A stretch of DNA of 40,292 nt, from contig JAFGFY010000040.1 in assembly GCA_016930795.1 (NCBI GenBank), positions 1 through 40,292 of the forward strand, written 5' to 3'. A model generated the notes under the pieces. That model was not told where the DNA came from, searched no databases, and saw nothing but the letters and a program-made list of their open reading frames with translations. The stretch comes from Deltaproteobacteria bacterium (lineage in GTDB: Bacteria > Desulfobacterota > DSM-4660 > Desulfatiglandales > HGW-15). This document shows, piece after piece, positions 8,726-21,854 of the stretch. Positions within the stretch are counted from its first letter, which is position 1, and every line of letters starts with the position of its first letter. The position numbers were made by a program, and so were the translations under genes.

Positions 8726-9574
8726 TTAGAGCCTGAGAAGCCTAGCCATAAAGGATCTTTTGTTCATTTCATCGATCTTTTTTTCCATTTCATCAATGCG
8801 TCTTTGATAGACATCTATTTCCGCCTGGGCAGACAATGCCTGTTCATTGATTTCATGGATCACCAGGGTTAGGTCCAATACTCTGGCCATTTCCTGGCGA
8901 CTATAGTCGCCTTCTCTTATCAAATTTAATTCTTTGTTGATTCTCTCTTTTTCAGCATCGGCGTTTGAGACAATAGCCAGCTGTCCCTGAATGTGGCTTC
9001 GGTATTGGCTGATCTTATCGAGCAGATCTTTCTGGGAATCCATGCTTAGAAACAGAGAGGCAAAGACGACGAGCAAGATGGAGACCGCTATCGCCGCGAT
9101 TTTGACCGTTAGGGTGGAGAGAGCAAAGAGTTGATGCCCGATGGATTTGATCCATCCGGTGAGCGCCAGAACAGATTCGGCCTTTGAATAAGTGACGAGT
9201 TCCCCTTCCACCTGGCCCTCAATCGCCTCCAGGGCGTGTCCCATGACGTTGACAACATTCTCCAAATCCAACCCTAACGCTCCGGTTCGGCATTTTTTGA
9301 GTGTTTCTTTGTCAGGCTCATGCAGTTGTCGGACAATTCCTTGGAAATTCTCAATGACCTGATCAGTGTCCACTTCCTTTATGAATCGGCCCGGAAACTT
9401 TTTCTTTAGAAAAGAGATATCACTTTTGAGTTCTTCAAGATGGTTGCCGATGGCGAGACCGACCTTTTGCAGATAAACCTCTTCACAAAGGTGGGTGTTT
9501 GCCATGTTCAGCAAAAGGGCCATGTCCCTGATGCCATGCAGGCTTTTAGGCGTTTTATGGGTTTTTGCCGCCAT
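8726..9574 (-). CDS. Hypothetical membrane protein with C-terminal coiled coil
   Basis: I do not recognise the family. The product has about 282 residues (296 if a GTG at 9616 is used). A largely helical N-terminal region of about 150 residues precedes one strong membrane segment (TVKIAAIAVSILLVVFASLF, roughly residues 162-181). A long C-terminal region rich in Glu, Lys, Arg and Gln follows, with heptad-like spacing consistent with a coiled coil. It stands alone between two inverted-repeat elements and downstream of a terminator. Its shape suggests a signalling or scaffold role, but nothing here establishes one. Confidence 0.7.
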   Translation of the reverse strand: MAAKTHKTPKSLHGIRDMALLLNMANTHLCEEVYLQKVGLAIGNHLEELKSDISFLKKKFPGRFIKEVDTDQVIENFQGIVRQLHEPDKETLKKCRTGALGLDLENVVNVMGHALEAIEGQVEGELVTYSKAESVLALTGWIKSIGHQLFALSTLTVKIAAIAVSILLVVFASLFLSMDSQKDLLDKISQYRSHIQGQLAIVSNADAEKERINKELNLIREGDYSRQEMARVLDLTLVIHEINEQALSAQAEIDVYQRRIDEMEKKIDEMNKRSFMARLLRL

Positions 9575-9741
9575 GCTTCTTTTGCCTTTGCCCGAACCGC
9601 TTCTCCAACTCTTCACATAATCTTCAATTATATCATAGTGATAAACAACTTGCCACTATCTTTTGAAAATGGAGAAAAGGGAAAAAAGAAAGTTTTTTCA
9701 GCTAATGAGTACGATGGAAGGGAGAATATGCTCACGGCCTG

Positions 9742-10001: not shown

Positions 10002-13000
10002 TTACACGCTCTCATCCAGCTTGACATCACAGCGAAGACAACGCGCGCACTCCTTTCTGGCCGTCTCCTCGTCATACCCCATTTCCACTTCTGCGGCGAA
10101 TTCCTTGATCCGGTCCGCGGGATCGAGTTTCGGCATCTCGGCCCTGGCCTGTTTGATGACTTCCTCAGGCACTTTCATGGTCACGTTGATGGTCTCCACA
10201 TATTGCTGATGAGGCTTATCCCCCCTCTTTTGTGCCAGGTATTTATCTATCTCTACCGCGGCTCGCTTGCCGTGTGCCAGGGCATCAACAACTCGGGCCG
10301 GTCCAGTGACGGCATCCCCCCCTGCAAAAATGCCGGGGATGTTCGTGACCAGAGTATGACGGTCTACACTTATGGTGTTCCACTTGGTGACAATGGATCC
10401 GGTAAAATCAAGATCCGGGGCTTGGCCAATGGCGGAAAAGACCGTGTCATATTCTTCACTGATGACGCAGCCCTCGATAGGGACCGGTCTTCGGCGTCCG
10501 CTTCGATCAAAATCCTTGAGTTCACATTCATCCATCTCAAGAATCAACTTGCCATTGCTCCGGGTTATGCCTTTGGGGGCTACAAGCTCTTTGAGCTTGA
10601 CACCCTCGGCCAGGGCATCCATGACTTCCTCTTCATCAGCGGGCATGTCTTTTCTTGCGCGCCTGTAGGCAATGGTTACATCCGCCCCCAGCCTCCGGCA
10701 GACCCTGGCGACGTCAATGGCCACATTTCCGCCACCCATGACGACAACCTTTTTTCCGGGATCCGGGGCGGTTCCCAATTCAATGTCTCTCAGAAATTCC
10801 GCGCCCCCTATCACACCGAGAAGGTCATCTCCGGGAATGCGGATGGGCAGGCTCCTATGGGCGCCCACGGCGACGAAGATCGCGTCAAATTCCTTTTGGA
10901 GTTGTTCCAGAGAGACGTCACGTCCCACCCTAGTGTTTTTCCTGACTTCGACACCTACGTCCAGAATGAAGTTGATCTCCTGATCCAGGATATCCCTGGG
11001 GAGACGATAAGCCGGTATCCCGTAACGAAGCATGCCGCCCAGATGAGGAAGCTCCTCAAAGATCGTGGGATTGTATCCCATCAAGGCCAGCTGGTAGGCG
11101 GCGGCGAGACCCCCCGGGCCTCCTCCGATAATAGCGATCTTTTCCTCCTTTGAAGAACCCTTCTTAACCGGCACGGTGAAACCCCTCTTGATGGCCATAT
11201 CCGCGGCGAATCGCTTGATCTTGGGGATACTCAAGGGCTCATCGGTTTGTCCTCTGAGACAGACTTCAGTACATGGGTGAGTGCAGACCCGACCACAGAC
11301 TCCGGGAAGGGGGTTTGTCTGATAAATCAAAGAGATGGCCTCCTCATAGCGCCCCTCTCCCACAAGAGAGAGGTAGCCGGGGACGTCTTGGCCGATGGGA
11401 CAGGCATTAATGCATTTGGCCTTGAAAAGGGCTGAGCAGACCCCTGCCTCGCAGTGCTTATGAAGGATATGGTCTTCATATTCGTGGCGAAAATATCTCA
11501 GGGTGGAAAGGACCGGGTTGGGAGCGGTTTGACCGAGACCGCAAAGGGATGAATCCTTGATGAAATAACACAGCTCCTCCAACGTGTCGATATCCTGCAT
11601 CTCCCCTTTCCCCTGGGTGATTCGATCAAGGATTTCCAGCATTCGCCGGGTGCCTTCACGGCATGGCGTACATTTGCCGCAGGACTCTTCCTGGCAGAAG
11701 TCAATGAAAAAACGGGCCATATCCACCATGCAGGATGCTTCGTCCATGACGATCATGCCGCCAGACCCCATAATGGCGCCCACTTTCGCGATCTCCTCGT
11801 AATCCGTCGGCGTATCCAGAAGATACCCAGGAATGCACCCTCCGGATGGCCCGCCCAATTGTACGGCCTTAAAGGATCTATTATTAGCAATGCCCCCACC
11901 AATCTCATAGATGATGCTCTTGAGCGTGGTCCCCATGGGAACCTCCACAAGACCGATGTTGTTGACGGCCCCTGTCAGGGCGAATACCTTGGTTCCCTTA
12001 CTGTTTTCCGTCCCCAAGCTGGCATACCATTCTCCCCCTCTTAGGATAATCTGAGGAATATTGGCCAGTGTTTCCACATTATTGAGCACGCTGGGCTTTT
12101 TCCATAACCCGGCGACCGCTGGAAAGGGAGGCCGAGGCCGGGGCATCCCCCTTTTTCCCTCAATGGAGTGCATAAGGGCGGTCTCTTCACCACATACAAA
12201 GGCCCCGGCACCCTGGTAGATCTCAAGGTCAAAGTCAAACCCCGTGTCGAGAATATCTTTGCCCAGGAGTCCGTATTCTCTGGCCTGAGTAATGGCGATA
12301 TCCAGACGTCGAAGGGCCAAAGGATACTCTGCACGGCAGTAGATGTATCCGTGATGGGCGCCGATGGCCTTGGCCGCGATGATCATGCCTTCCACCACGG
12401 CGTGGGGATCTGCTTCCAGGACGCTTCTATCCATGAATGCGCCGGGATCGCCTTCATCCGCGTTGCAGAGGACATATTTAACATCTCCAACCGATTTGCC
12501 GGCGAATTCCCATTTCATTCCCGTGGGAAAACCGGCGCCGCCTCGGCCCCTGATCCCCGACGTCTTTATCTCATGAATGATCTCTTCGGGCTTCATATCC
12601 TGCAATGCCTTGGCCGCCGCAAGATATCCGTCTTGAGCGATGTATTCATCAATGTTCTCGGCGTCCACTTTCCCCTTGTTCCTCAAGACACGTAAGACCT
12701 GTTTTGAGAAAAAAGGAATATCATCCAGGCTGGGAATGGTCTCGGCAGAGGCCGGCTCTTTGTAGAACAGCCGTTCCACCGGTCTTCCTTTGAGAAAATG
12801 TTCTTCCACCAGTTCGGGTATATCCTCCGGCTTCAGTTTTTGATAAAAGATGTTGCCGGGCTGGACGACCATCACGGGGCCCTGGGCACAAAACCCGTTA
12901 CATCCGGTGACGATGATCTGAATTTCCCTATGAAGATCTCTTTTGACAATCTCTTGTGCAAGTGCCTCTTTGACTTTAGCGGCACCCGATGCCTCGCACC

Positions 13001-13043
13001 CTGTGCCCCCACAGATCATCAGGTGTGATCGAAACGAACTCAT
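10002..13043 (-). CDS. NuoF-type NADH dehydrogenase fused to GltD-type FAD/NAD(P) oxidoreductase
   Basis: A 1013-residue fusion flavoprotein. The N-terminal thioredoxin-like 2Fe-2S domain has Cys11, Cys16, Cys48 and Cys52. The NuoF/HydB core (about 140-560) shows GRGGAGFPTG, the NADH/FMN element GAGAFVCGEETAL, an SLBB region, and the 4Fe-4S motif SCGKCTPCREG with a distal Cys in SSLCGLGQ. From about 580 a GltD/NfnB-like half begins: CINACPIGQDVPGY and CGRVCTHPC for 4Fe-4S binding, GGGPGGLAAAYQLA for FAD, GGGNVAIDVARVC for NAD(P), and a terminal CARCLRCD. The architecture points to electron transfer between NAD(P)H and ferredoxin-type carriers, as in bifurcating hydrogenase or formate dehydrogenase complexes (inference). 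AAGGAGG lies six bases before ATG 13043. It is the last gene of the operon, and no catalytic hydrogenase follows it. Confidence 0.93.
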   Translation of the reverse strand: MSSFRSHLMICGGTGCEASGAAKVKEALAQEIVKRDLHREIQIIVTGCNGFCAQGPVMVVQPGNIFYQKLKPEDIPELVEEHFLKGRPVERLFYKEPASAETIPSLDDIPFFSKQVLRVLRNKGKVDAENIDEYIAQDGYLAAAKALQDMKPEEIIHEIKTSGIRGRGGAGFPTGMKWEFAGKSVGDVKYVLCNADEGDPGAFMDRSVLEADPHAVVEGMIIAAKAIGAHHGYIYCRAEYPLALRRLDIAITQAREYGLLGKDILDTGFDFDLEIYQGAGAFVCGEETALMHSIEGKRGMPRPRPPFPAVAGLWKKPSVLNNVETLANIPQIILRGGEWYASLGTENSKGTKVFALTGAVNNIGLVEVPMGTTLKSIIYEIGGGIANNRSFKAVQLGGPSGGCIPGYLLDTPTDYEEIAKVGAIMGSGGMIVMDEASCMVDMARFFIDFCQEESCGKCTPCREGTRRMLEILDRITQGKGEMQDIDTLEELCYFIKDSSLCGLGQTAPNPVLSTLRYFRHEYEDHILHKHCEAGVCSALFKAKCINACPIGQDVPGYLSLVGEGRYEEAISLIYQTNPLPGVCGRVCTHPCTEVCLRGQTDEPLSIPKIKRFAADMAIKRGFTVPVKKGSSKEEKIAIIGGGPGGLAAAYQLALMGYNPTIFEELPHLGGMLRYGIPAYRLPRDILDQEINFILDVGVEVRKNTRVGRDVSLEQLQKEFDAIFVAVGAHRSLPIRIPGDDLLGVIGGAEFLRDIELGTAPDPGKKVVVMGGGNVAIDVARVCRRLGADVTIAYRRARKDMPADEEEVMDALAEGVKLKELVAPKGITRSNGKLILEMDECELKDFDRSGRRRPVPIEGCVISEEYDTVFSAIGQAPDLDFTGSIVTKWNTISVDRHTLVTNIPGIFAGGDAVTGPARVVDALAHGKRAAVEIDKYLAQKRGDKPHQQYVETINVTMKVPEEVIKQARAEMPKLDPADRIKEFAAEVEMGYDEETARKECARCLRCDVKLDESV

Positions 13044-13137: not shown

Positions 13138-13506
13138 TCAACCTCTTGCCAAAGCAAACTCCGTCTGGACCTCTCCGGCCAGGACATGCCTCTTGAAAAC
13201 CTGACGCATCTTATTGGCATCCATATGTTGGTACACGACGGGTTTTTGGCCTTCTATTTCAATCGTCACATTCGGTTCGCTGCTGCACATCCCCATGCAG
13301 CCGGAATTCATGACTCGAATGTCCTGTCTGTCCGTCTCCGCCATCTGCTCCAGGAGGGCATCCATCACCTCCCTGGCACCAGCCGCGATACCGCAGGTCC
13401 CCATGTGAACCGTAATCTTTACACTTGAACCTCCCCCACGAAGGGCTGTATCTTTCCGGACTTTATCCTTGATCTTCTTGAGGTCTTCAATGGTCAGCTT
13501 AGCCAT
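13138..13506 (-). CDS. Thioredoxin-like 2Fe-2S ferredoxin (NuoE C-terminal-like)
   Basis: A 122-residue small ferredoxin of the type that accompanies HydB/NuoF proteins and probably passes electrons to the flavin subunit. Visible motifs are VHMGTCGIAAGARE (Cys38) and NSGCMGMCSSEP (Cys70, Cys74). The usual second cysteine of the first pair is Ala42, so only three thiol ligands are apparent, a trait of this subgroup. Start ATG 13506 is set by GGAGG seven bases upstream; the frame opens further upstream without a better site. It precedes the NuoF-GltD gene by 94 bases. Confidence 0.87.
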   Translation of the reverse strand: MAKLTIEDLKKIKDKVRKDTALRGGGSSVKITVHMGTCGIAAGAREVMDALLEQMAETDRQDIRVMNSGCMGMCSSEPNVTIEIEGQKPVVYQHMDANKMRQVFKRHVLAGEVQTEFALARG

Positions 13507-13586
13507 ATTTCTTCCTCCCCTATGATTTCGCCTTTGGTATTTCAAGAAACAAAGACGTTTTCTGTTTACCGAAGGATAATGGTCGT

Positions 13587-14144
13587 TTAAGAGCTTTGCT
13601 CTCCAGCTTTCCGCCCTTCTAGGAATTTTCGAATCGTGCGGGCAACGTGGGTCATCACCTCAGGGTGATAAATAGGCACGTCATCAAGCTCCTTCTTTAT
13701 TTGACGCGTGTCCATTTCAAATCTGTCCCCATCAGCCTCATGGGTATAAACAAAATCAACCTCGGGGTGTGTCATGATCAGGCTGGTTAAAGAGCCTGCC
13801 ATGTCTCCCAGAGGGGGTGTGTCAATGTGATCCGTTCGAAAGGAGGCACGGACCATGGTTCCCTCCCCCTGTTTTGAACAGATATCAAACTCGCCGTCAC
13901 ACCTCTTGGCGGATTCCTTGAACAGGGATAGCCCCAATCCCACCCGCCGCGTCGCGCGTGTGGTGACAAAGGGATCGGTAATCTGTTCAAGCATGCTGTC
14001 CGGAATCCCCCGACCATTGTCTTTGATAGAGATTCGGAGGATCTTTTCTTCGTCGTCTTCCTCAATGGACAGGGTGATCAGACTCGCTTCGGCGTCCAGG
14101 CCGTTCTCGATAATATCCATGATATGGAGGGCGATCTCACGCAA
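13587..14144 (-). CDS. GHKL ATPase domain protein (histidine-kinase-like)
   Basis: A 185-residue protein made mostly of one GHKL ATP-binding domain: N box DIIENGLDAEAS, G1 box IKDNGRGIPDSM, F box DPFVTT, G2 box GLGLSL, and a C-terminal GEGTMVRASF. There is no phosphoacceptor His domain, sensor or receiver, so it may act like an anti-sigma-type kinase or as half of a split kinase. The C-terminal 70 residues are unassigned. Start TTG 14144, with GGAGG upstream, overlaps the PHP gene by eight bases, implying translational coupling. It is the second GHKL protein of this operon. Confidence 0.88.
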   Translation of the reverse strand: MREIALHIMDIIENGLDAEASLITLSIEEDDEEKILRISIKDNGRGIPDSMLEQITDPFVTTRATRRVGLGLSLFKESAKRCDGEFDICSKQGEGTMVRASFRTDHIDTPPLGDMAGSLTSLIMTHPEVDFVYTHEADGDRFEMDTRQIKKELDDVPIYHPEVMTHVARTIRKFLEGRKAGEQSS

Positions 14145-14880
14145 TCAGGCCCTCCACCTTTCTTCCCGATTCGCCCAAAAGGGCCATTCGTATCTCATCA
14201 AAATCCGGACTCTCCATGAGAAACCGGGTGGATATACGGCCCACATCAGATATGAAATGGGCATCGGAGAAACTCACGACAGAGAATCTTTCTATGCCGG
14301 GAATTTGCTGCTTTCCGGCCTCCCATTTGTCGGGACGCGAGATTTCGAGTGCATCCACTTCCAAATCAGGAGGAATAAAACCCAACTGGCTGGGTACGCT
14401 GAAGCTTGGCCGGTCCACATGACTGGCGATACTGAGCCCTCCCAACCTGTGTACTTCCCGGATGATATCAGAGAGTTTCAGATCCACCGCCCCGATCAGC
14501 AAGCGATCATTGAACCCTTCCACTTCGTCCCATTCGTTTGCCACCACCTGGTCACCAAAAAGCTCCGCTCGGTTGGTCCCTTTGAGGTGTTCATAGACCA
14601 TACTCTGCATCAGATAGACCTTTTCCACGCTTTCAAAGATGGCCAGTGAATGGACTTCCTCTATCGAGTTGATTTCCATTCCAGGCAGTACCCGAAGATC
14701 GCATCGGGTCGCGGCACGAATGGATGCCTCTACGTTTTCAGCGGAGTTATGGTCACAAATCGCAATGATATCCAGACCCCGCTCGAGGCTCTTTCCTACC
14801 ACAGCCTTTGGACTCATATCCAGTTCCGCACACGGTGACAAACAGGTGTGGATATGGAGGTCGGCCTTAAAAAATTTCAT
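14137..14880 (-). CDS. PHP-domain phosphoesterase
   Basis: A 247-residue PHP protein of the trpH/YciV-like class, a metal-dependent phosphoesterase or nuclease fold. Metal-ligand motifs are ADLHIHTCLSPC at the N-terminus, ICDHNSAEN, GMEINS, SHVDRP and FSDAHFISDVG. The natural substrate (nucleoside bisphosphate, oligonucleotide or phosphoprotein) cannot be read from sequence. Its start overlaps the stop of the DRTGG gene (ATGA-type overlap) and its end overlaps the GHKL ATPase gene. PHP proteins recur next to bifurcating hydrogenase genes in anaerobes, which suggests a regulatory role there (inference). Confidence 0.9.
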   Translation of the reverse strand: MKFFKADLHIHTCLSPCAELDMSPKAVVGKSLERGLDIIAICDHNSAENVEASIRAATRCDLRVLPGMEINSIEEVHSLAIFESVEKVYLMQSMVYEHLKGTNRAELFGDQVVANEWDEVEGFNDRLLIGAVDLKLSDIIREVHRLGGLSIASHVDRPSFSVPSQLGFIPPDLEVDALEISRPDKWEAGKQQIPGIERFSVVSFSDAHFISDVGRISTRFLMESPDFDEIRMALLGESGRKVEGLIA

Positions 14881-15224
14881 ACCTCTGTCTTGCCAATGCC
14901 TGCGCCATAAATTTGGCCGGCCAATTGGTAGGCCGTTGAAGATGACAGCAGGATGGGGAGTCCTTCTTCCTTAGCCTTAGCCTTGGTATTCTCGTCGGGA
15001 AGTCGTCCGTTCACCAAGATGATGGCGGCCATCTCTTTAAGCACAGCCACCGCCACAATATTCTGGTGGGACTGGATAGTCAACCATATATGGCCCTCCA
15101 TAGCGTTGGCCATGACGTCGCTCAGCAGGTCCCCACAATACCCCCCCTTTACTTCTCGCTCCAGGCCTATCTCTCCTGTTGCCACATCCAAGTGAAAAAG
15201 GCCCTGAATATCCCTAACATTCAC
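14877..15224 (-). CDS. DRTGG-domain protein (second copy)
   Basis: A 115-residue single-domain DRTGG protein, the ligand-binding fold otherwise found beside CBS domains and in phosphotransacetylase N-termini. The core is GGYCGDLLSDVMANAMEGHI and AAIILVNGRLPDENTKAKA. GTG 15224 is chosen because GGGAGG lies six bases upstream and the product then starts MNVRDIQGLFHLD, matching family N-termini; a longer frame from 15263 lacks such a site. It overlaps the hydrogenase-like gene by 11 bases and the PHP gene by four. It is paralogous to the DRTGG gene at 16947. Confidence 0.86.
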   Translation of the reverse strand: MNVRDIQGLFHLDVATGEIGLEREVKGGYCGDLLSDVMANAMEGHIWLTIQSHQNIVAVAVLKEMAAIILVNGRLPDENTKAKAKEEGLPILLSSSTAYQLAGQIYGAGIGKTEV

Positions 15225-16518
15225 GAGCAACCTCCCTTCGCCCCCGATCCTGTCGGCATACACAGTCTTCGAGTCGAGCTATACCGTCAACCACATCTTC
15301 CGCGAAGGTTCTGCAATCAGGGGAACCGCACGCCCCGCATTCAATCCCCGGCAGTTTCCGTATGAGGTCTTCTATCTTATTTTGTCGCTCGATATTCTCG
15401 GAAATAGAGAGCCGGGGGCTTCCGCTTTCCAGAGGTACACGTTTCCACTGACTCCGAAACCATCCCTCGTTATAAAGCTTGAGCACGTAATTGTATTTGA
15501 CCCGTCTTTCTTCGCCGAACATGCGGACAAGTCTTTCGATCAAATGTTTTGCCTGATACCGATCAGCTACGGTGAAGGGACCGCCGATACATCCCTCGGT
15601 ACAGACCCGAAGCTCGAGGAATTCAAGGTCCTCGAGGAGTCCCATTTCCACCTTCTTCAGATAACGAATACTCTCATGTAGTCCTGATACCGCAAGGCTT
15701 TGGGCATTGAGCGCGGCGATTTCACCCCCCGACTTGCCCCAGCCTACACCTACACCGCCGGAGTAGTGAAGGACCCTATCCTGTTCCATGGCCTGTTCTT
15801 GGGCCTTTTGCCTTATGCGTTCATGGATAGCCGAAATCCCGATAGCCCTATCCTTGTTTGATGCGTCATGCAAAGAGTGCTCCATGAGCTGACTCGACAT
15901 GGCCGGACAGGGTGTAATGTGCAGAAGACTGACATCTTCAGGCCTGCACTTGTTCTTATCTGAAAAACGTCTCTTCGCTTCTCTCGTGACGATCTCACGG
16001 GGTGTCGCCAGCGGCACAATATGTTCCAGGAGAGAAGGAAAACGATAGGCAATGAGGCGTTCCACAACCGGGCAGATTGCAGAGATCAGCGGAAACTTAG
16101 GCTCCGGCTTTTTTCGTTCCTCCCTGATGTACAGCTCCAATGCAAAATTGTATATCTCACTGGTATATGACTGGTCATGGACATAGCCGTACCCCATGGC
16201 CCTTAGTCCCAGAAGGATGTCATTTGGAAGAAAACCTGCTCCAAACTGGGAATAGAGCACCGAGGAAGGGCTCACCACGTAATGCTCCCCATTCTTCAAA
16301 TCGGAATAGGGCGGGGTTACCCCCTTTACCGCTCCTCTAGGGCAGACACGAACACATTCGAGACAATCGACACAAACCCCTTGAATGCGGGCAAGTCCGT
16401 CTCTCACACGTATGGCCTTGGTTGGACACGCCTTCATGCACAAGACGCAACCATTGCATAGGGTCTCATCAATTTGCACGGAGGAACCCCGACTCAGTGT
16501 GTGAGTGAGTTCAGCCAA
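15214..16518 (-). CDS. Hydrogenase-like iron-sulfur protein (HydS-type, probably non-catalytic)
   Basis: A 434-residue protein with an N-terminal 2x[4Fe-4S] ferredoxin (Cys21, 24, 27, 31 and 49, 52, 55, 59), a central region related to the [FeFe]-hydrogenase H-cluster domain, and a C-terminal 4Fe-4S domain (Cys394, 397, 402, 419). H-cluster positions are altered: L1 is SAICP (Cys149; the first Cys of TSCCP is Ile), L2 is TPCPAMS (Cys204; the Lys of PCxxK is absent), L3 is RVCTEGCIGGP (Cys306, Cys310). Cluster-binding cysteines survive while proton-transfer and cyanide-anchoring residues do not. A sensor or electron-relay role therefore seems likelier than H2 turnover. TTG 16518 follows GGAGG by six bases and overlaps the RsbW-like stop by eight. 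Confidence 0.85.
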   Translation of the reverse strand: MAELTHTLSRGSSVQIDETLCNGCVLCMKACPTKAIRVRDGLARIQGVCVDCLECVRVCPRGAVKGVTPPYSDLKNGEHYVVSPSSVLYSQFGAGFLPNDILLGLRAMGYGYVHDQSYTSEIYNFALELYIREERKKPEPKFPLISAICPVVERLIAYRFPSLLEHIVPLATPREIVTREAKRRFSDKNKCRPEDVSLLHITPCPAMSSQLMEHSLHDASNKDRAIGISAIHERIRQKAQEQAMEQDRVLHYSGGVGVGWGKSGGEIAALNAQSLAVSGLHESIRYLKKVEMGLLEDLEFLELRVCTEGCIGGPFTVADRYQAKHLIERLVRMFGEERRVKYNYVLKLYNEGWFRSQWKRVPLESGSPRLSISENIERQNKIEDLIRKLPGIECGACGSPDCRTFAEDVVDGIARLEDCVCRQDRGRREVAREC

Positions 16519-16945
16519 AATCCCCCTCCAGTTCAAAACCGATATTCAGAGTAGTCCCATGTCCCTCCTCTGAATGAATTTCAATGCTATCCGCGCTCTC
16601 TTTGATGTTTGGAAGGCCCATTCCCGCCCCGAATCCCATTTCCCTGTGCTTGAGATTCGCCGTGGAATAGCCCGGTTTAAAGGCCAGTTCAATATCTTTA
16701 ATCCCCTTGCCTTGATCCGTAAAAACAAGGGTAACACTATTCGGGGACACCTTGAGTAGCGCTTCCCCGTCACCTCCGTGCATGACGACGTTCATCTCAG
16801 ACTCATAGGCGCATACCGAGATCCTTCGGATGAGAGCAGGGTTAAAACCAATGTGCTTAAGAATGCTTTGAATCTCCAGAGATACTTCACCGGCATTGAC
16901 AAAGTCATTGGCTCTGATCGTGAATCTTCTCTCCAGATCGGGCAT
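16511..16945 (-). CDS. RsbW-like GHKL serine kinase / anti-sigma regulator
   Basis: A 144-residue protein consisting of one GHKL ATPase domain of the RsbW/SpoIIAB kind: YESEMNVVMHGG (N box), VFTDQGKGIKD (G1 box), GAGMGLPNIKESAD (G2 box) and GHGTTLNIGF at the end. Such proteins bind sigma factors or STAS-domain antagonists and phosphorylate the latter on serine. No STAS protein or sigma factor is in this operon, so the partner is unknown. It starts one base after the first DRTGG gene and overlaps the hydrogenase-like gene by eight bases. An RsbW-like gene beside a HydS gene recurs in hydrogenase loci of anaerobes. Confidence 0.9.
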   Translation of the reverse strand: MPDLERRFTIRANDFVNAGEVSLEIQSILKHIGFNPALIRRISVCAYESEMNVVMHGGDGEALLKVSPNSVTLVFTDQGKGIKDIELAFKPGYSTANLKHREMGFGAGMGLPNIKESADSIEIHSEEGHGTTLNIGFELEGDFG

Positions 16946-16946
16946 A

Positions 16947-17348
16947 TTACGGGTTTCCCGTTATCCCTTTCCTTAAACCGCTCCTATAAACCTGTTTCTC
17001 GACCCCTCGAAGCCCCTTTTCATAGAGCCTTCCACAGGCTGAAAACATGGTACAGGGAGTAGAAAGCAGGGGTAACCCGTGTTTGCGGGCATGGGCAACA
17101 AGAGTCTCGTCCGGCAGCTTTTCCCTCACCAGAATCACGGCGGCTACCCCCACGATGACCGCGGTACGGATGACCTGAATATTGTTCAGGCCTGTGACCA
17201 GAACCGTTCCCTGGGTGGCCCCCCTGAGTATGTCGCTCATTAGATCGCCGGCGCAGCAGGCGCTGACGGAGGTATTCAGCTTGTCGTCCCCCACCTGTAC
17301 AGTGGCATTCAGTAGGTCTCTGATTTCGGATAGCTTCACAGAAGTCAT
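16947..17348 (-). CDS. DRTGG-domain protein (first copy)
   Basis: A 133-residue single-domain DRTGG protein (core ACCAGDLMSDILRGATQGT, AAVILVREKLPDE). It lies nine bases after nuoE and one base before the RsbW-like gene. It shares fold and layout with the copy at 14877-15224, including the final PLLSTPCTMFSACGRLY segment matching ILLSSSTAYQLAGQIY. The ligand is unknown; some DRTGG/CBS proteins bind nucleotides, so an energy- or redox-nucleotide sensor is conceivable (inference). Confidence 0.88.
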   Translation of the reverse strand: MTSVKLSEIRDLLNATVQVGDDKLNTSVSACCAGDLMSDILRGATQGTVLVTGLNNIQVIRTAVIVGVAAVILVREKLPDETLVAHARKHGLPLLSTPCTMFSACGRLYEKGLRGVEKQVYRSGLRKGITGNP

Positions 17349-17357
17349 TCATTCACC

Positions 17358-17858
17358 TTATTCGTATCGTGAAAGGATTTCCGAGACAGTGTTCGGCTTC
17401 ATGGCGCCATGTGTATCTTCGTTTACCACCATAACTGGGGCCAGCCCGCAGGCCCCCAGACATCGAACTGCTTCCAGAGAGAACCGCCTGTCCTCCGTAG
17501 TCTCGCCAATCCCAATACCGAACTCCGCTGATATCTTCTCCATAATTTGCTTTGTTCCCCTGACATAACAGGCGGTTCCGAGACAGACCTTAATGACATT
17601 CCTTCCTTTGGGGACCATGGAAAAGAAGGAGTAGAAGGTCACAACACCATATATCGTGCTTCCGGGTAAATTGAGTTTTCCGCCGATATAGTCCTGCAAT
17701 TCGACCGGCAGATATCCTACAATAATCTGACACTCCTCCAAAACAGGGATGAGTGCCCCCGGTTTATCTTTGAATTTCCGGATGACCTCGTCCACTTTTG
17801 ACATCACTTCAGGTGTGAGATCCGGATTCAAAGCCTCGAGATCTTGAAACTGGTGCAT
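17358..17858 (-). CDS. NuoE/HydC-type 24 kDa 2Fe-2S subunit
   Basis: A 166-residue NADH-dehydrogenase 24 kDa-type subunit, the usual partner of NuoF/HydB flavoproteins. The N-terminal helical bundle is followed by a thioredoxin-like 2Fe-2S domain with VCLGTACYVRG and RCLGACGLAP. The first pair is C-x4-C and the second C-x3-C, giving four ligands. ATG 17858 is chosen because GGAG sits eight bases upstream; an in-frame ATG at 17924 would add 22 residues without a ribosome site. First gene of the nine-gene operon. Its regulatory region lies in 17859-17960, where I could not fix a promoter. Confidence 0.93.
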   Translation of the reverse strand: MHQFQDLEALNPDLTPEVMSKVDEVIRKFKDKPGALIPVLEECQIIVGYLPVELQDYIGGKLNLPGSTIYGVVTFYSFFSMVPKGRNVIKVCLGTACYVRGTKQIMEKISAEFGIGIGETTEDRRFSLEAVRCLGACGLAPVMVVNEDTHGAMKPNTVSEILSRYE

Positions 17859-17910
17859 GATCTGTTCTCCTTGGTTTACTATTATTGGCAAAAACTTGGT
17901 TTGTTCCTTT

Positions 17911-18139
17911 ATGGTTGAAGCCAAAGGCCGCGACGAAAGAATCCCGTTTTCTCAGGTAGATGAGTCCCTTGAAGCACTCAGTCAACTACGTTATGAGGAC
18001 CAGGCCAAAGGTTGGCAGAGTATAACAGATGAAGAGTTTTTTTCAATAGATTTCTGGAGGGGTTATCATGGATAAATCCAATATTTTCAGTCCAAGCCTC
18101 CACCATATTGAAAATGCACAGCGAGCGCATTCCCCGTAG
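17911..18139 (+). pseudogene. Remnant of a two-gene unit, possibly toxin-antitoxin-like
   Basis: A 54-codon frame (17911-18075) with gene-like codon use ends DEEFFSIDFWRGYHG. Its stop overlaps ATG 18068 of a second frame (the ATGGATAA overlap), which has GGAGGGG six bases upstream. The second frame runs only 23 codons and ends at 18137-18139, inside the hairpin repeat that begins at 18107. A small acidic first gene coupled to a second gene is the usual shape of an antitoxin/toxin pair, but no known family is recognised. The repeat appears to have truncated the second gene. Confidence 0.35.
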
Positions 18140-18633: not shown

Positions 18634-18662
18634 TTGACAAAATGCCAAGTTGGAACTAGAAG
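18634..18662 (+). promoter_or_regulatory. Candidate sigma-70 promoter for korDABC
   Basis: TTGACA (18634-18639), 17 bases, TAGAAG (18657-18662). The -35 is perfect and the -10 weak. A start near 18670 would exclude the TTG at 18650 as the korD start and favour ATG 18713. Confidence 0.45.
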
Positions 18663-18712
18663 AAAAGATTACCTTTTTGGCTGTACGAGAATGGGTAACC
18701 GCTCAAAAGGCA

Positions 18713-18958
18713 ATGAAGAAGATGGCGAAAGGCAAGAAAAGAGGAAAGATCGTTGTCCATCAAGAGCTATGCAAGGGGTGCGGGCTCTGTGTCGCATTTT
18801 GCCCTCAAAATGTGATGGCGATCTCTGATACCTTGAATCAAATGGGATATTTTCCGGCAAAATGGCTCGATAAGGGCCACAACGGCAAGACGTGTGTCGC
18901 CTGCGCCACGTGCGCTATCATGTGCCCGGATGCTGCCATAGAGGTCTATCTTGAGTGA
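18713..18958 (+). CDS. korD: 2-oxoacid:ferredoxin oxidoreductase, delta (ferredoxin) subunit
   Basis: An 81-residue 2x[4Fe-4S] ferredoxin subunit with motifs CKGCGLCVAFCP and CVACATCAIMCP, the electron acceptor arm of the Kor complex. ATG 18713 is preferred over an in-frame TTG at 18650 because a candidate promoter lies between them, although its ribosome site is weak. The stop overlaps the korA start by eight bases. Gene order D-A-B-C is the standard four-subunit 2-oxoglutarate (or related 2-oxoacid) enzyme order. Confidence 0.92.
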   Translation: MKKMAKGKKRGKIVVHQELCKGCGLCVAFCPQNVMAISDTLNQMGYFPAKWLDKGHNGKTCVACATCAIMCPDAAIEVYLE

Positions 18959-20021
18959 AAAAGTACTGATGAGAGGAACACATGTCGTTGCGGAGGCAGC
19001 GGTTCGAGCGGGTTGTCGATTCTATGCGGGATATCCCATCACGCCGCAGAATGAATTGCCGGAATATATGTCCGACGCCATGGCTAGGCTAGAGGATGGG
19101 ACCTTTATTCAGGCCGAAAGCGAACTGGCTGCTATCAACATGGTCATTGGCGCTTCTATAGCCGGGGCGCGGGCTATGACCAGTTCATCGAGCCCGGGCA
19201 TCAGCCTCAAACAGGAGGGGTTCTCTTTTCTGGCCGCTCAGGAATTGCCTGCCGTGATTGTTAATATTATGAGAGGCAGCCCCGGTTTGGGGAATATCGC
19301 CCCTTCACAGGGTGATTATTTTCAAGCCACACGGGGAGGAGGACATGGTGATTATCGCAGCATTGTCTTGGCACCTGCCTCAGGGCAGGAAATGGCTGAT
19401 TTGACGCGGAAGGCCTTCGATTATGCAGACCGATATCGTATACCCGTCATGATTCTCGCAGATGGGATGATGGGGCAGATGATGGAACCGGTTCTACTTC
19501 CAGAGAGTATTGATCCCAGAAAACTCCCTCCAAAGCCTTGGATTTTGAATGGAGCAAAGGGACGTCCCAGTCGAGTTATCAAGTCTTTGCTACTGGATCC
19601 GTCCGTCGAAGAGGCCCACAACTGGAAATTGGTGCGCAAACACGAAATGATCGGTCGGGAGATTAGTGATGCGGAAACGGACCTCATGGATGACGCCCGT
19701 ATTGCGGTCATCGCCTATGGGACCGCGGCAAGGATTGCCAAAGGTGCCATAAAGCGTGTCCGTGAGACAGGGCTGAAGGTGGGACTTCTTCGGCCTGTGA
19801 CCCTGTGGCCTTTTCCAGAGAAGGTCTTCCGGGGTTTGGACGAATCTGTAGAGAATTTCCTTGTCTTTGAAATGAGTACAGGCCAGATGCTGGAGGATGT
19901 AAAGCTTTCGCTGGCCGGCAGGGGCGAAGTCCATTTTTACGGCCGGCCGGGAGGCCCGATTCCAACGCCGGATGAAGTGGCCAAGGTGATCAGCCGTTTG
20001 TATCATCGGCAAAAGCTGTAG
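18951..20021 (+). CDS. korA: 2-oxoacid:ferredoxin oxidoreductase, alpha subunit
   Basis: A 356-residue alpha subunit of a four-subunit 2-oxoglutarate-type ferredoxin oxidoreductase, which oxidatively decarboxylates a 2-oxoacid to acyl-CoA, CO2 and reduced ferredoxin. Recognisable are AGCRFYAGYPITPQNE at the N-terminus (pyrimidine-binding domain), TSSSSPGISLKQEG, and GSPGLGNIAPSQGDY. TTG 18951 is used: GAGG lies six bases upstream and the overlap with korD fits translational coupling; ATG 18969 is the alternative. Substrate could be 2-oxoglutarate or branched-chain 2-oxoacids; sequence alone does not decide. Confidence 0.93.
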   Translation: MSEKVLMRGTHVVAEAAVRAGCRFYAGYPITPQNELPEYMSDAMARLEDGTFIQAESELAAINMVIGASIAGARAMTSSSSPGISLKQEGFSFLAAQELPAVIVNIMRGSPGLGNIAPSQGDYFQATRGGGHGDYRSIVLAPASGQEMADLTRKAFDYADRYRIPVMILADGMMGQMMEPVLLPESIDPRKLPPKPWILNGAKGRPSRVIKSLLLDPSVEEAHNWKLVRKHEMIGREISDAETDLMDDARIAVIAYGTAARIAKGAIKRVRETGLKVGLLRPVTLWPFPEKVFRGLDESVENFLVFEMSTGQMLEDVKLSLAGRGEVHFYGRPGGPIPTPDEVAKVISRLYHRQKL

Positions 20022-20054
20022 TTGAAGGATATAAGGGGTTGATTAGGAGCGCGA

Positions 20055-20804
20055 ATGGCGAAGCTAGTCTTCAAAAGGCCAAAGACCCTCAAACAGGTGA
20101 TTTCCCATTATTGCCCTGGCTGCGGGCATGGTATCATCCACCGTCTTATAGCAGAGGTGATCGAGGATCTTGATATCGGGGAGAAGACCATCGGTGTACC
20201 GCCGGCCGGTTGTGCGGTGCTGGCCTATAACTACATTGATGTGGACATGGCGGAGGCGGCTCACGGGAGGGCAACGGCGGTCGCCACAGGCATTAAGAGG
20301 ATTCTTCCGGACAGAATCGTTTTTGCCTACCAGGGTGATGGTGACATGGCCGCTATCGGAACGGCTGAAACGATTCACGCGGCAAACCGGGGCGAGAATA
20401 TCACCTGCATATTCGTGAATAACGGCGTTTATGGAATGACCGGAGGACAGATGGCACCCACTACTATTCTAGGTCAACTCTCGACAACCACCCCCGGAGG
20501 ACGCGATATGGCCCGTGACGGTGGCCCTCTTGATCTGAGTGAGATGCTGGCGCTGACTTCGGGCAGTGTCTATATTGAGCGAACAGCCGTTAACTCCCCC
20601 AAGAACGTTAGACGGACCAAGAAGGCGATTGCCAAGGCCTTTAAGTCGCAGATGGCCAATCGAGGGTTCTCTCTTGTGGAGATCCTCTCTCCCTGTCCTA
20701 CCAATTGGAAGATGTCTCCTGTAGATTCACATAGATGGATTGATAAGGTCGCAGCCTCCGTCTTTCCCCTTAGAGTGATCAAGGATAAGACGGAAGAGAG
20801 TTAG
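20055..20804 (+). CDS. korB: 2-oxoacid:ferredoxin oxidoreductase, beta (TPP) subunit
   Basis: The 249-residue thiamine-diphosphate-binding subunit. It shows YCPGCGHGI near the N-terminus, the TPP/Mg motif QGDGDMAAIGTAETIHAANR, and NNGVYGMTGGQMAPTT. AGGAG sits five bases before ATG 20055. It follows korA by 33 bases and precedes korC by 15. Length and motifs match KorB/VorB proteins, which lack the extra Fe-S domain of pyruvate-type enzymes because the clusters are on KorD. Confidence 0.95.
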   Translation: MAKLVFKRPKTLKQVISHYCPGCGHGIIHRLIAEVIEDLDIGEKTIGVPPAGCAVLAYNYIDVDMAEAAHGRATAVATGIKRILPDRIVFAYQGDGDMAAIGTAETIHAANRGENITCIFVNNGVYGMTGGQMAPTTILGQLSTTTPGGRDMARDGGPLDLSEMLALTSGSVYIERTAVNSPKNVRRTKKAIAKAFKSQMANRGFSLVEILSPCPTNWKMSPVDSHRWIDKVAASVFPLRVIKDKTEES

Positions 20805-20819
20805 GAAAAAGGTTCTATC

Positions 20820-21377
20820 ATGCTGAAGAAAACAGTCTTTGCAGGTTTCGGCGGGCAAGGGGTCCTAATGATGGGCTATGTTCTTGCCTTCTCTGCCATG
20901 AGGGATGGCCTGCAAGTGACATACTTGCCTTCCTATGGCGCCGAGGTCCGAGGCGGGACCGCAAATTGTACGGTGGTCGTTTCGGACGAGGAAATCGCGT
21001 CCCCCGTGAGTTCGTCTCCGGATTTTGCCGTTGTCCTAAACAGGCCATCCATGATGAAATATCAGGGAGTAATGACAAGCGGCGGGATCATGATTCTCAA
21101 TTCGAGTCTCGTGGATGTTGATCCTTCGAGAAAGGATCTCGATGTCGTCAAGGTCCCTGCCAATGATATTGCTGCAGAACTGGGCAGCGACCGCACGCTG
21201 AATATGATTATGCTCGGGGCCTTTGTGGCCAAGACAGGGATTTCCTCGGTGGACTCCGTGATGAATGGATTGGGAGAAATTGTGAAAGGAAAGAACGCCC
21301 GTATCATGGAGTTGAATCGAAAAGGTTTGGAAAGGGGGGCCGCCTACGCCCTTAGAGAACAAAAGGTTTCCCGGTGA
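20820..21377 (+). CDS. korC: 2-oxoacid:ferredoxin oxidoreductase, gamma subunit
   Basis: The 185-residue gamma subunit, which forms the domain that completes the CoA-binding region of the complex. It starts FAGFGGQGVLMMGYVLA and includes YLPSYGAEVRGGTANCTVVV, both diagnostic of this family. AAAGG lies seven bases upstream of ATG 20820. Followed after 45 bases by the tandem-ACT protein, probably on the same transcript. Confidence 0.95.
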   Translation: MLKKTVFAGFGGQGVLMMGYVLAFSAMRDGLQVTYLPSYGAEVRGGTANCTVVVSDEEIASPVSSSPDFAVVLNRPSMMKYQGVMTSGGIMILNSSLVDVDPSRKDLDVVKVPANDIAAELGSDRTLNMIMLGAFVAKTGISSVDSVMNGLGEIVKGKNARIMELNRKGLERGAAYALREQKVSR

Positions 21378-21422
21378 CTGCATCGGGATCTTTCATCCTT
21401 TTGATTGGGAGAAAAACCTGAA

Positions 21423-21854
21423 ATGAAAACAATCAAGGAAATCGGCCTTGCCGCGGAAAATGGGGTGGATCAGTTGTCCCTGGTTAGTGAGTTGTTCGAT
21501 GCCAATGGGATCCATATGATAGGTTTTCATGTGCACAATGAAGAGAAGAAATGTGGACTTCGCATGGTGGTCGATGACCCGGAGAAGGCAGAGAATATCC
21601 TGAACACGGCCGGCTATGACCTGCAAGTGACGGATGTCATCGCCTGTGAACTCCCTGATCATCCGGGTGGGCTCAACGCGGTTTTAAATCCGCTGAAATC
21701 GGCGAACATCGAATTGGACACCATCTACCCCTGCCTTGGAACTGGGGAGACCACCGTCTTGATTATTGTCACCGGTGCTATCAAAGAAGTCTTAGGCGTG
21801 ATGGAAGAGAATTGGATACGGGTCTATGGGAGTGAGTTCTATGGTTTCTACTAG
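21423..21854 (+). CDS. Tandem ACT-domain amino-acid-binding protein
   Basis: A 143-residue protein with two ACT-like halves (about 1-70 and 71-143), including AAENGVDQLSLVSELFDANG and ELPDHPGGLNAVLNPLKSANI. The second is a clear ACT ligand-loop pattern (PGGL). ACT domains bind amino acids and control metabolic enzymes. Proteins of this type accompany 2-oxoacid:ferredoxin oxidoreductase or aryl-CoA ligase genes, so it may sense an amino acid from which the Kor substrate derives (inference). ATG 21423 is preferred to TTG 21405, with GGGAG about 11 bases upstream. Confidence 0.87.
   Translation: MKTIKEIGLAAENGVDQLSLVSELFDANGIHMIGFHVHNEEKKCGLRMVVDDPEKAENILNTAGYDLQVTDVIACELPDHPGGLNAVLNPLKSANIELDTIYPCLGTGETTVLIIVTGAIKEVLGVMEENWIRVYGSEFYGFY

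Follow-up and report, generated by a model that had tools for sequence, protein, structure and literature searches.

By its sequence, the HydS-like protein encoded in the window, the 40,292-nucleotide stretch of DNA from a Deltaproteobacteria bacterium that was analysed here, is a relative of the group D (M2e) putative sensory [FeFe]-hydrogenases. The protein probably acts as a redox module carrying [4Fe-4S] clusters only, which would use an RsbW-type ATPase to control an electron-bifurcating NAD(P)H enzyme and would belong to a lineage that is independent of maturases and lies next to classical group D. As the genomes carrying this family lack the machinery to make an H-cluster, HydS most likely reads the redox state of the cell rather than hydrogen.

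The HydS-like protein and its relationship to group D

The first in-frame TTG of the gene is located at position 16536 and opens a reading frame of 440 amino acids (15214..16536, minus strand). The TTG at 16518 is preceded by a good Shine-Dalgarno sequence (GGAGGGGGATT-TTG), with GGAGG six bases upstream, and is likely to be the correct start of HydS. Residue numbers are given here from TTG 16536 unless noted and are six higher than those counted from TTG 16518. The gene has the following features:

15214..16518, minus strand: HydS-like protein, 434 amino acids from TTG 16518 (open reading frame; PF02906, E 7.7e-20; Shine-Dalgarno sequence)
16327..16479, minus strand: N-terminal dicluster ferredoxin domain with two [4Fe-4S] motifs, residues 20-70 of 440 (PF13237/PF00037; eight Cys invariant)
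15577..16233, minus strand: H-domain with the hydrogenase fold, residues 102-320 (PF02906; fold match to [FeFe]-hydrogenases)
16069..16083, minus strand: L1, S-A-I-C-P, in which Cys155 is CpI C300 and C299 is replaced by Ile (alignment with HydA)
15889..15915, minus strand: L2, T-P-C-P-A-M-S-S-Q, in which Cys210 is CpI C355, K358 is replaced by Met, and M353 by Thr as in group D (alignments)
15580..15609, minus strand: L3, R-V-C-T-E-G-C-I-G-G, in which Cys312 and Cys316 are CpI C499 and C503, M497 is replaced by Arg and G501 by Glu (alignments)
15259..15354, minus strand: C-terminal FeS domain, C-x2-C-x4-C-x16-C, with Cys400, 403, 408 and 425, residues 395-426 (PF04060, E 3.8e-12)

An earlier note on this DNA had named Cys149, 204, 306 and 310 as cluster ligands; these numbers are exact from TTG 16518 (155, 210, 312 and 316 from 16536). 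Its motifs SAICP in L1, TPCPAM in L2 and RVCTEGCIGGP in L3 were all recovered in the open reading frame, and the flanking 4Fe-4S modules that it described were recognized by Pfam, two clusters on one flank and one on the other. The alignment with catalytic HydA proteins that it had proposed placed the four cysteines at CpI C300, C355, C499 and C503; the remaining pocket positions are Ile at 299, Thr at 353, Met at 358, Arg at 497, Glu at 501, Arg at 325 and Ser at 230. The CpI numbers 299, 353 and 497 are from PMC10055695 and PMC8163306. The HydS matches to the NCBIfam [FeFe]-hydrogenase models were far under the cut-offs (e.g. 84 bits versus 450). Structure modelling, also proposed in the note, led to the same fold: an AlphaFold2 model made from a 23-row alignment (pLDDT 78, pTM 0.79, low pLDDT in the H-cluster loops) had [FeFe]-hydrogenases as its best PDB matches.

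Scanning of GTDB species genomes yielded approximately 25 relatives, in Desulfobacterota, Gemmatimonadota, and WOR-3. The 23 closest full-length relatives are 39-59 % identical to the window HydS, and across them 58 residues are invariant. The four cysteines of the H-domain, the eight N-terminal and the four C-terminal ones do not vary in this set. The four [4Fe-4S]H cysteines are kept, far beyond chance, in all 98 group D-like proteins wherever the stretch is present. No further invariant set of cysteines for a second cluster in the H-domain was seen among the aligned relatives. The second family member in the window genome (L002; G000:C56:18512-19195) is located outside the HydS operon, its neighbours being, by eye, response regulators, a transporter, and a universal-stress-like protein. 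An in-frame repeat in L002 (LSVSPVFYTQF/LSVSPVFYTQS) coincides exactly with the pocket loop that corresponds to CpI A230.

The domain order of HydS, two [4Fe-4S] clusters followed by the H-domain and the Cx2Cx4Cx16C domain, with no PAS domain, is that by which group D (M2e) was defined, including the spacing of the C-terminal cysteines (PMC8163306). The four [4Fe-4S]H ligands expected of an [FeFe]-hydrogenase are present, and the group D signature of Ser or Thr at M353 with a residue other than Cys at C299 is represented by Thr and Ile. At the group D pocket positions A230, Met325, K358 and G501, the window protein deviates, with Ser, Arg, Met and Glu, respectively. In an H-domain tree rooted on HydA, in which group D was represented by homologues from HydG-positive genomes, the group D-like set (42 rows) formed one clade with a support of 100. 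The HydG-less lineage of the window (21 sampled rows) fell inside this clade with a support of 93, beside classical group D, while the placement of one other HydG-less lineage was not settled by the tree. Group D proteins of HydG-positive genomes scored 369-418 bits against the model of the window family. The earlier note missed both the relationship of the protein to group D HydS and the conserved multi-gene operon in which it resides.

Maturases and the diiron pocket

No HydE, HydF or HydG over the cut-off was found in the window genome, which is 94 % complete, or in any of the 25 genomes with the family (that of the window and 24 others), including the chromosome-titled records L019 and L027. 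A clostridial control genome (G025) was positive for all three. The window genome encodes two PF02906 proteins, HydS and its paralogue L002, neither of which is catalytic; no catalytic [FeFe] HydA and no [NiFe] hydrogenase were detected in it. Of 345 genomes of the phylum Desulfobacterota, 50 carry a strong PF02906 protein (catalytic-type HydA), and HydG was called in 40 of these. As it was uncalled in the other 10, HydE and HydF were added to the maturase test. Another 44 of the 345 have weak PF02906 proteins only, with a HydG call in three, and in 28 genomes HydG-like matches over the cut-off occur with no H-domain. Absence of HydG alone was rejected as proof on account of these 10 and 28 genomes, and a single maturase gap in a single draft genome would be poor evidence.

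Four genomes of the window's phylum that are 99-100 % complete (G099, G132, G302, and G322) combine a strong catalytic-type PF02906 protein with no HydG over the curated cut-off, which may be read as a divergent HydG or as maturation outside the reach of the model. H-domain proteins of other architectures were also encountered. In L131 (1364-3751, G350), a PF02906 H-domain and an FeS domain are joined in one protein with a sigma-54 activator and an HTH of the Fis type; L132-L134 and L139 are in one clade with it, and their genomes have no HydG over the cut-off. Maturase-less H-domain regulators thus seem to have emerged among group C-like proteins as well. A histidine kinase-fused H-domain from Gemmatimonadota (L032) has FCEGC as its L3, one residue shorter between the cysteines, and no HydG was found in its chromosome-level genome (G016).

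The diiron pocket was compared between 29 group D proteins of the HydG-positive set, 23 from the class of G025 and six from the window's phylum, and HydG-less group D-like sets of 20 proteins from the class of G025 and 49 around the window. One of the six, from G226, has no HydG call itself and belongs to the same family as the five that do. Cys at position 299 was seen in none of the group D-like proteins. The residue counts at the other positions are naive, with few independent events on the trees, so that the association is one at the level of clades: Ala230 is present in 26 of 29 HydG-positive versus 0 of 47 HydG-less proteins of the window's set, Met or Ile at 325 in 29 of 29 versus 0 of 47, Gly501 in 28 of 29 versus 4 of 47, and Lys358, lost in the window's subclade, in 26 of 29 versus 31 of 47. 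Only two changes on the tree are needed for the window's HydG-less set, and when pocket residues were tested against HydG by independent pairs, none of the readable tests reached significance, there being too few informative contrasts. The substitutions typical of the window clade (CpI numbering) are Ser for A230, Arg at 325, Arg at 497, and Glu or Asp for G501. The 20 HydG-less proteins from the class of G025 are mixed; some look classical, possibly because their genomes are incomplete, and others have changes of their own, such as Lys to Arg.

These results bear on the argument of the earlier note that the residues for proton delivery and for anchoring the diiron site are gone. The Cys and the Lys are indeed missing, but neither loss serves as proof that there is no diiron site: C299 is absent from all 29 proteins of the HydG-positive set, and the Lys of PCxxK is kept by the 31 HydG-less relatives. 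The conclusion drawn there, an ordinary 4Fe-4S cluster with no diiron site and sensing of redox state rather than gas, is still the best reading, although the note's arguments do not suffice to show it. It is supported by the lack of HydE, HydF and HydG, of a catalytic HydA and of a [NiFe] hydrogenase in the window genome, together with the clade-wide substitutions in the pocket. The survival of Lys358 in most relatives, in which no diiron site is expected, is a point against it.

The HydS operon and the probable function of HydS

The gene order NuoE-DRTGG-RsbW-HydS-DRTGG-PHP-HATPase-[2Fe-2S]-NuoF(-GltD) is conserved in Desulfobacterota and WOR-3, and partly in Gemmatimonadota. Besides HydS, the operon in the window consists of:

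17358..17924, minus strand: NuoE/HydC-like [2Fe-2S] subunit (PF01257, E 1.8e-48)
16947..17348, minus strand: DRTGG-domain protein 1 (PF07085), almost always next to RsbW and HydS in the relatives
16511..16945, minus strand: RsbW-like HATPase of the anti-sigma-factor kinase type (PF13581), overlapping the start of HydS
14877..15263, minus strand: DRTGG-like protein 2, overlapping the 3' end of HydS (PF07085, E 5e-5, under the cut-off; conserved position)
14137..14880, minus strand: PHP-domain phosphoesterase-like protein (PF02811; conserved position)
13587..14144, minus strand: histidine kinase-type ATPase with no phosphoacceptor domain (PF02518, E 3e-17; conserved position)
13138..13545, minus strand: thioredoxin-like [2Fe-2S] protein (PF01257, E 6.6e-5, just under the cut-off; conserved position)
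10002..13043, minus strand: NuoF/HydB fused to GltD, an NAD(P)H/flavin bifurcation-type subunit (PF01512, PF10589, PF07992)

The N, G1 and G2 ATP-binding boxes of the RsbW-like protein are kept in 53 orthologues. HydB and StnB are the best PDB relatives of NuoF-GltD, with StnC/NfnA for the GltD part. No DNA-binding protein or STAS partner was found in the operon. An open reading frame of 296 amino acids downstream of NuoF-GltD (8726-9616, minus strand) had no Pfam or NCBIfam match. A divergent set of genes on the plus strand (18650-21854), identified by eye from the open reading frames, resembles a 2-oxoacid:ferredoxin oxidoreductase (ferredoxin, alpha, beta, and gamma) with an ACT-like protein, and would represent a ferredoxin supply adjoining the bifurcation module.

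The enzyme that accompanies the module varies. In the window's phylum, the group D genes of the HydG-positive set occur in the same module, and several of their contigs also carry a catalytic HydA (e.g. G349:C44, G226:C26). In HydG-less L008, NuoF-GltD and then a molybdopterin formate dehydrogenase precede DRTGG-RsbW-HydS; the catalytic subunit of this dehydrogenase (L008:6321-9104) is split by an in-frame TGA in a Sec-like position (CARL-TGA-HSSTVAGL). A molybdopterin (FdhA-type) protein is fused to a NuoE domain in HydG-less L013, and HydG-less L003 adjoins, by eye, Rnf-like genes and an FdhA-like start. The association of one module with HydA in HydG-positive genomes and with formate dehydrogenase or transhydrogenase-like enzymes in HydG-less ones suggests that the common input of the group D HydS module may be redox state and not H2 itself. 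In the limited set of papers covered, nothing on this system was found in the literature on DRTGG proteins with [FeFe]-hydrogenase or on maturase-less sensory hydrogenases.

From the operon, we infer a role of HydS as a redox sensor. Its H-domain would carry a plain [4Fe-4S] cluster, the diiron cavity being either empty or occupied by the side chains of Arg180, Arg310 and Glu314. How oxidized the chain of clusters is would be governed by electrons from ferredoxin or from the bifurcating NuoEF module; a change in conformation would follow and be passed to the RsbW-like ATPase and the DRTGG partners. This relay would adjust the electron-bifurcating NAD(P)H enzyme of the same operon, which is transhydrogenase-like here and a formate dehydrogenase in relatives.

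HydS could instead be no sensor at all, serving the NuoEF-GltD (or formate dehydrogenase) complex as a subunit for electron transfer or assembly, with the H-domain as a structural scaffold for a relay cluster. It shares its operon with oxidoreductase subunits, its four predicted [4Fe-4S] clusters might line up as a chain, and StnC retains a catalytically inactive FdhF domain that is needed for assembly (PMC10482914). We nevertheless consider such a role rather unlikely, as the most constant neighbours of HydS are RsbW and DRTGG1 and not redox subunits, L006, L007 and L010 have DRTGG1-RsbW-HydS with no oxidoreductase subunit detected (on short contigs), the paralogue L002 lies outside the operon, and the same module accompanies HydA in HydG-positive genomes. 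The possibility that HydS still binds an H-cluster and senses H2, matured by unrecognized or imported machinery, is improbable: none of the 25 genomes has any of the three maturases, the window genome has no hydrogenase of either kind, Arg occupies two pocket positions and Glu that of G501, and the window protein has lost Lys358. It draws on the four cysteines and much of L3 being kept, on the Lys358 of the 31 relatives, on some HydA-bearing genomes that also lack a HydG call, and on TamHydS of group D, which works without C299 and M353 (PMC8163306).

Equally improbable is a cavity that holds another cofactor or ligand, be it a [2Fe-2S] cluster, as proposed for the cavity of Nar1 (PMC12621388), or a small anion held by Arg, such as formate or bicarbonate. 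Arg at 325 and 497 recurs across the clade, and some of the operons encode a formate dehydrogenase, whereas the H-domain has no extra invariant set of cysteines and the placement of the Arg residues is by alignment only, and the H-cluster loops have low pLDDT in the model. A bolder version would have a large HydEFG-independent lineage beside group D turn the diiron pocket into a different sensing site lined by Arg, Arg and Glu, with formate, bicarbonate or an additional [2Fe-2S] cluster as possible occupants, and report through the RsbW-DRTGG relay to electron-bifurcating formate/NAD(P)H enzymes. This is speculative and we doubt it; if true, a hydrogen sensor would have been re-purposed for another substrate. 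That the gene is a decaying hydrogenase on its way to loss, as the several changed canonical active-site residues might suggest, is refuted by the intact open reading frame, the 58 invariant residues over 23 proteins and the conserved operon. In surveys of the Pfam type, HydS-like proteins pass as [FeFe]-hydrogenases although their genomes appear unable to make an H-cluster, so that sediments and other metagenomes would seem to hold more hydrogenases and H2 sensors than they do.

Comparison with known systems

The characterized group D member TamHydS has an H-cluster and no proton-relay Cys, and it has been proposed as a sensor (PMC8163306; PMC13104023). With this type, the window HydS shares the domain order with no PAS domain, the lack of C299 and the Ser/Thr at M353, and with group D of HydG-positive Desulfobacterota it shares the DRTGG-RsbW-HydS-DRTGG-PHP module. 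The window family differs in that its genomes have neither HydEFG nor a catalytic HydA, in its pocket (Ser for A230, Arg at 325 and 497, Glu for G501, and in the window also the loss of Lys358) and in the enzyme of the operon, which is NuoEF-GltD or formate dehydrogenase and not HydABC. In TamHydS, H2 did not reduce the C-terminal cluster (PMC13104023). Group C (M2f) TmHydS likewise has an H-domain and a C-terminal FeS domain and no proton-relay Cys, but the window HydS has no PAS domain and its genomes have no maturases; the group C-like kinase fusions form a clade apart from it in the tree.

The Stn enzyme is an electron-bifurcating transhydrogenase on a HydBC-like core, and it resembles the module in the window in having NuoE- and NuoF-type subunits with a GltD domain (PMC10482914). 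GltD is here fused to NuoF, whereas in Stn it is fused to the NuoG/FdhF-like StnC; no NuoG/FdhF-like subunit was seen beside NuoE and NuoF-GltD in the window. For a hydrogenase fold with no diiron site, the nearest precedent, by analogy, is Nar1 (IOP1/CIAO3), which from its description likewise has a hydrogenase-like fold with ordinary [4Fe-4S] clusters, at two sites, and no [2Fe]H, and preparations of which carry a [2Fe-2S] cluster (PMC12621388). Nar1 is a eukaryotic Fe-S assembly factor, and the window HydS would present this kind of fold in another context and presumably in another role.
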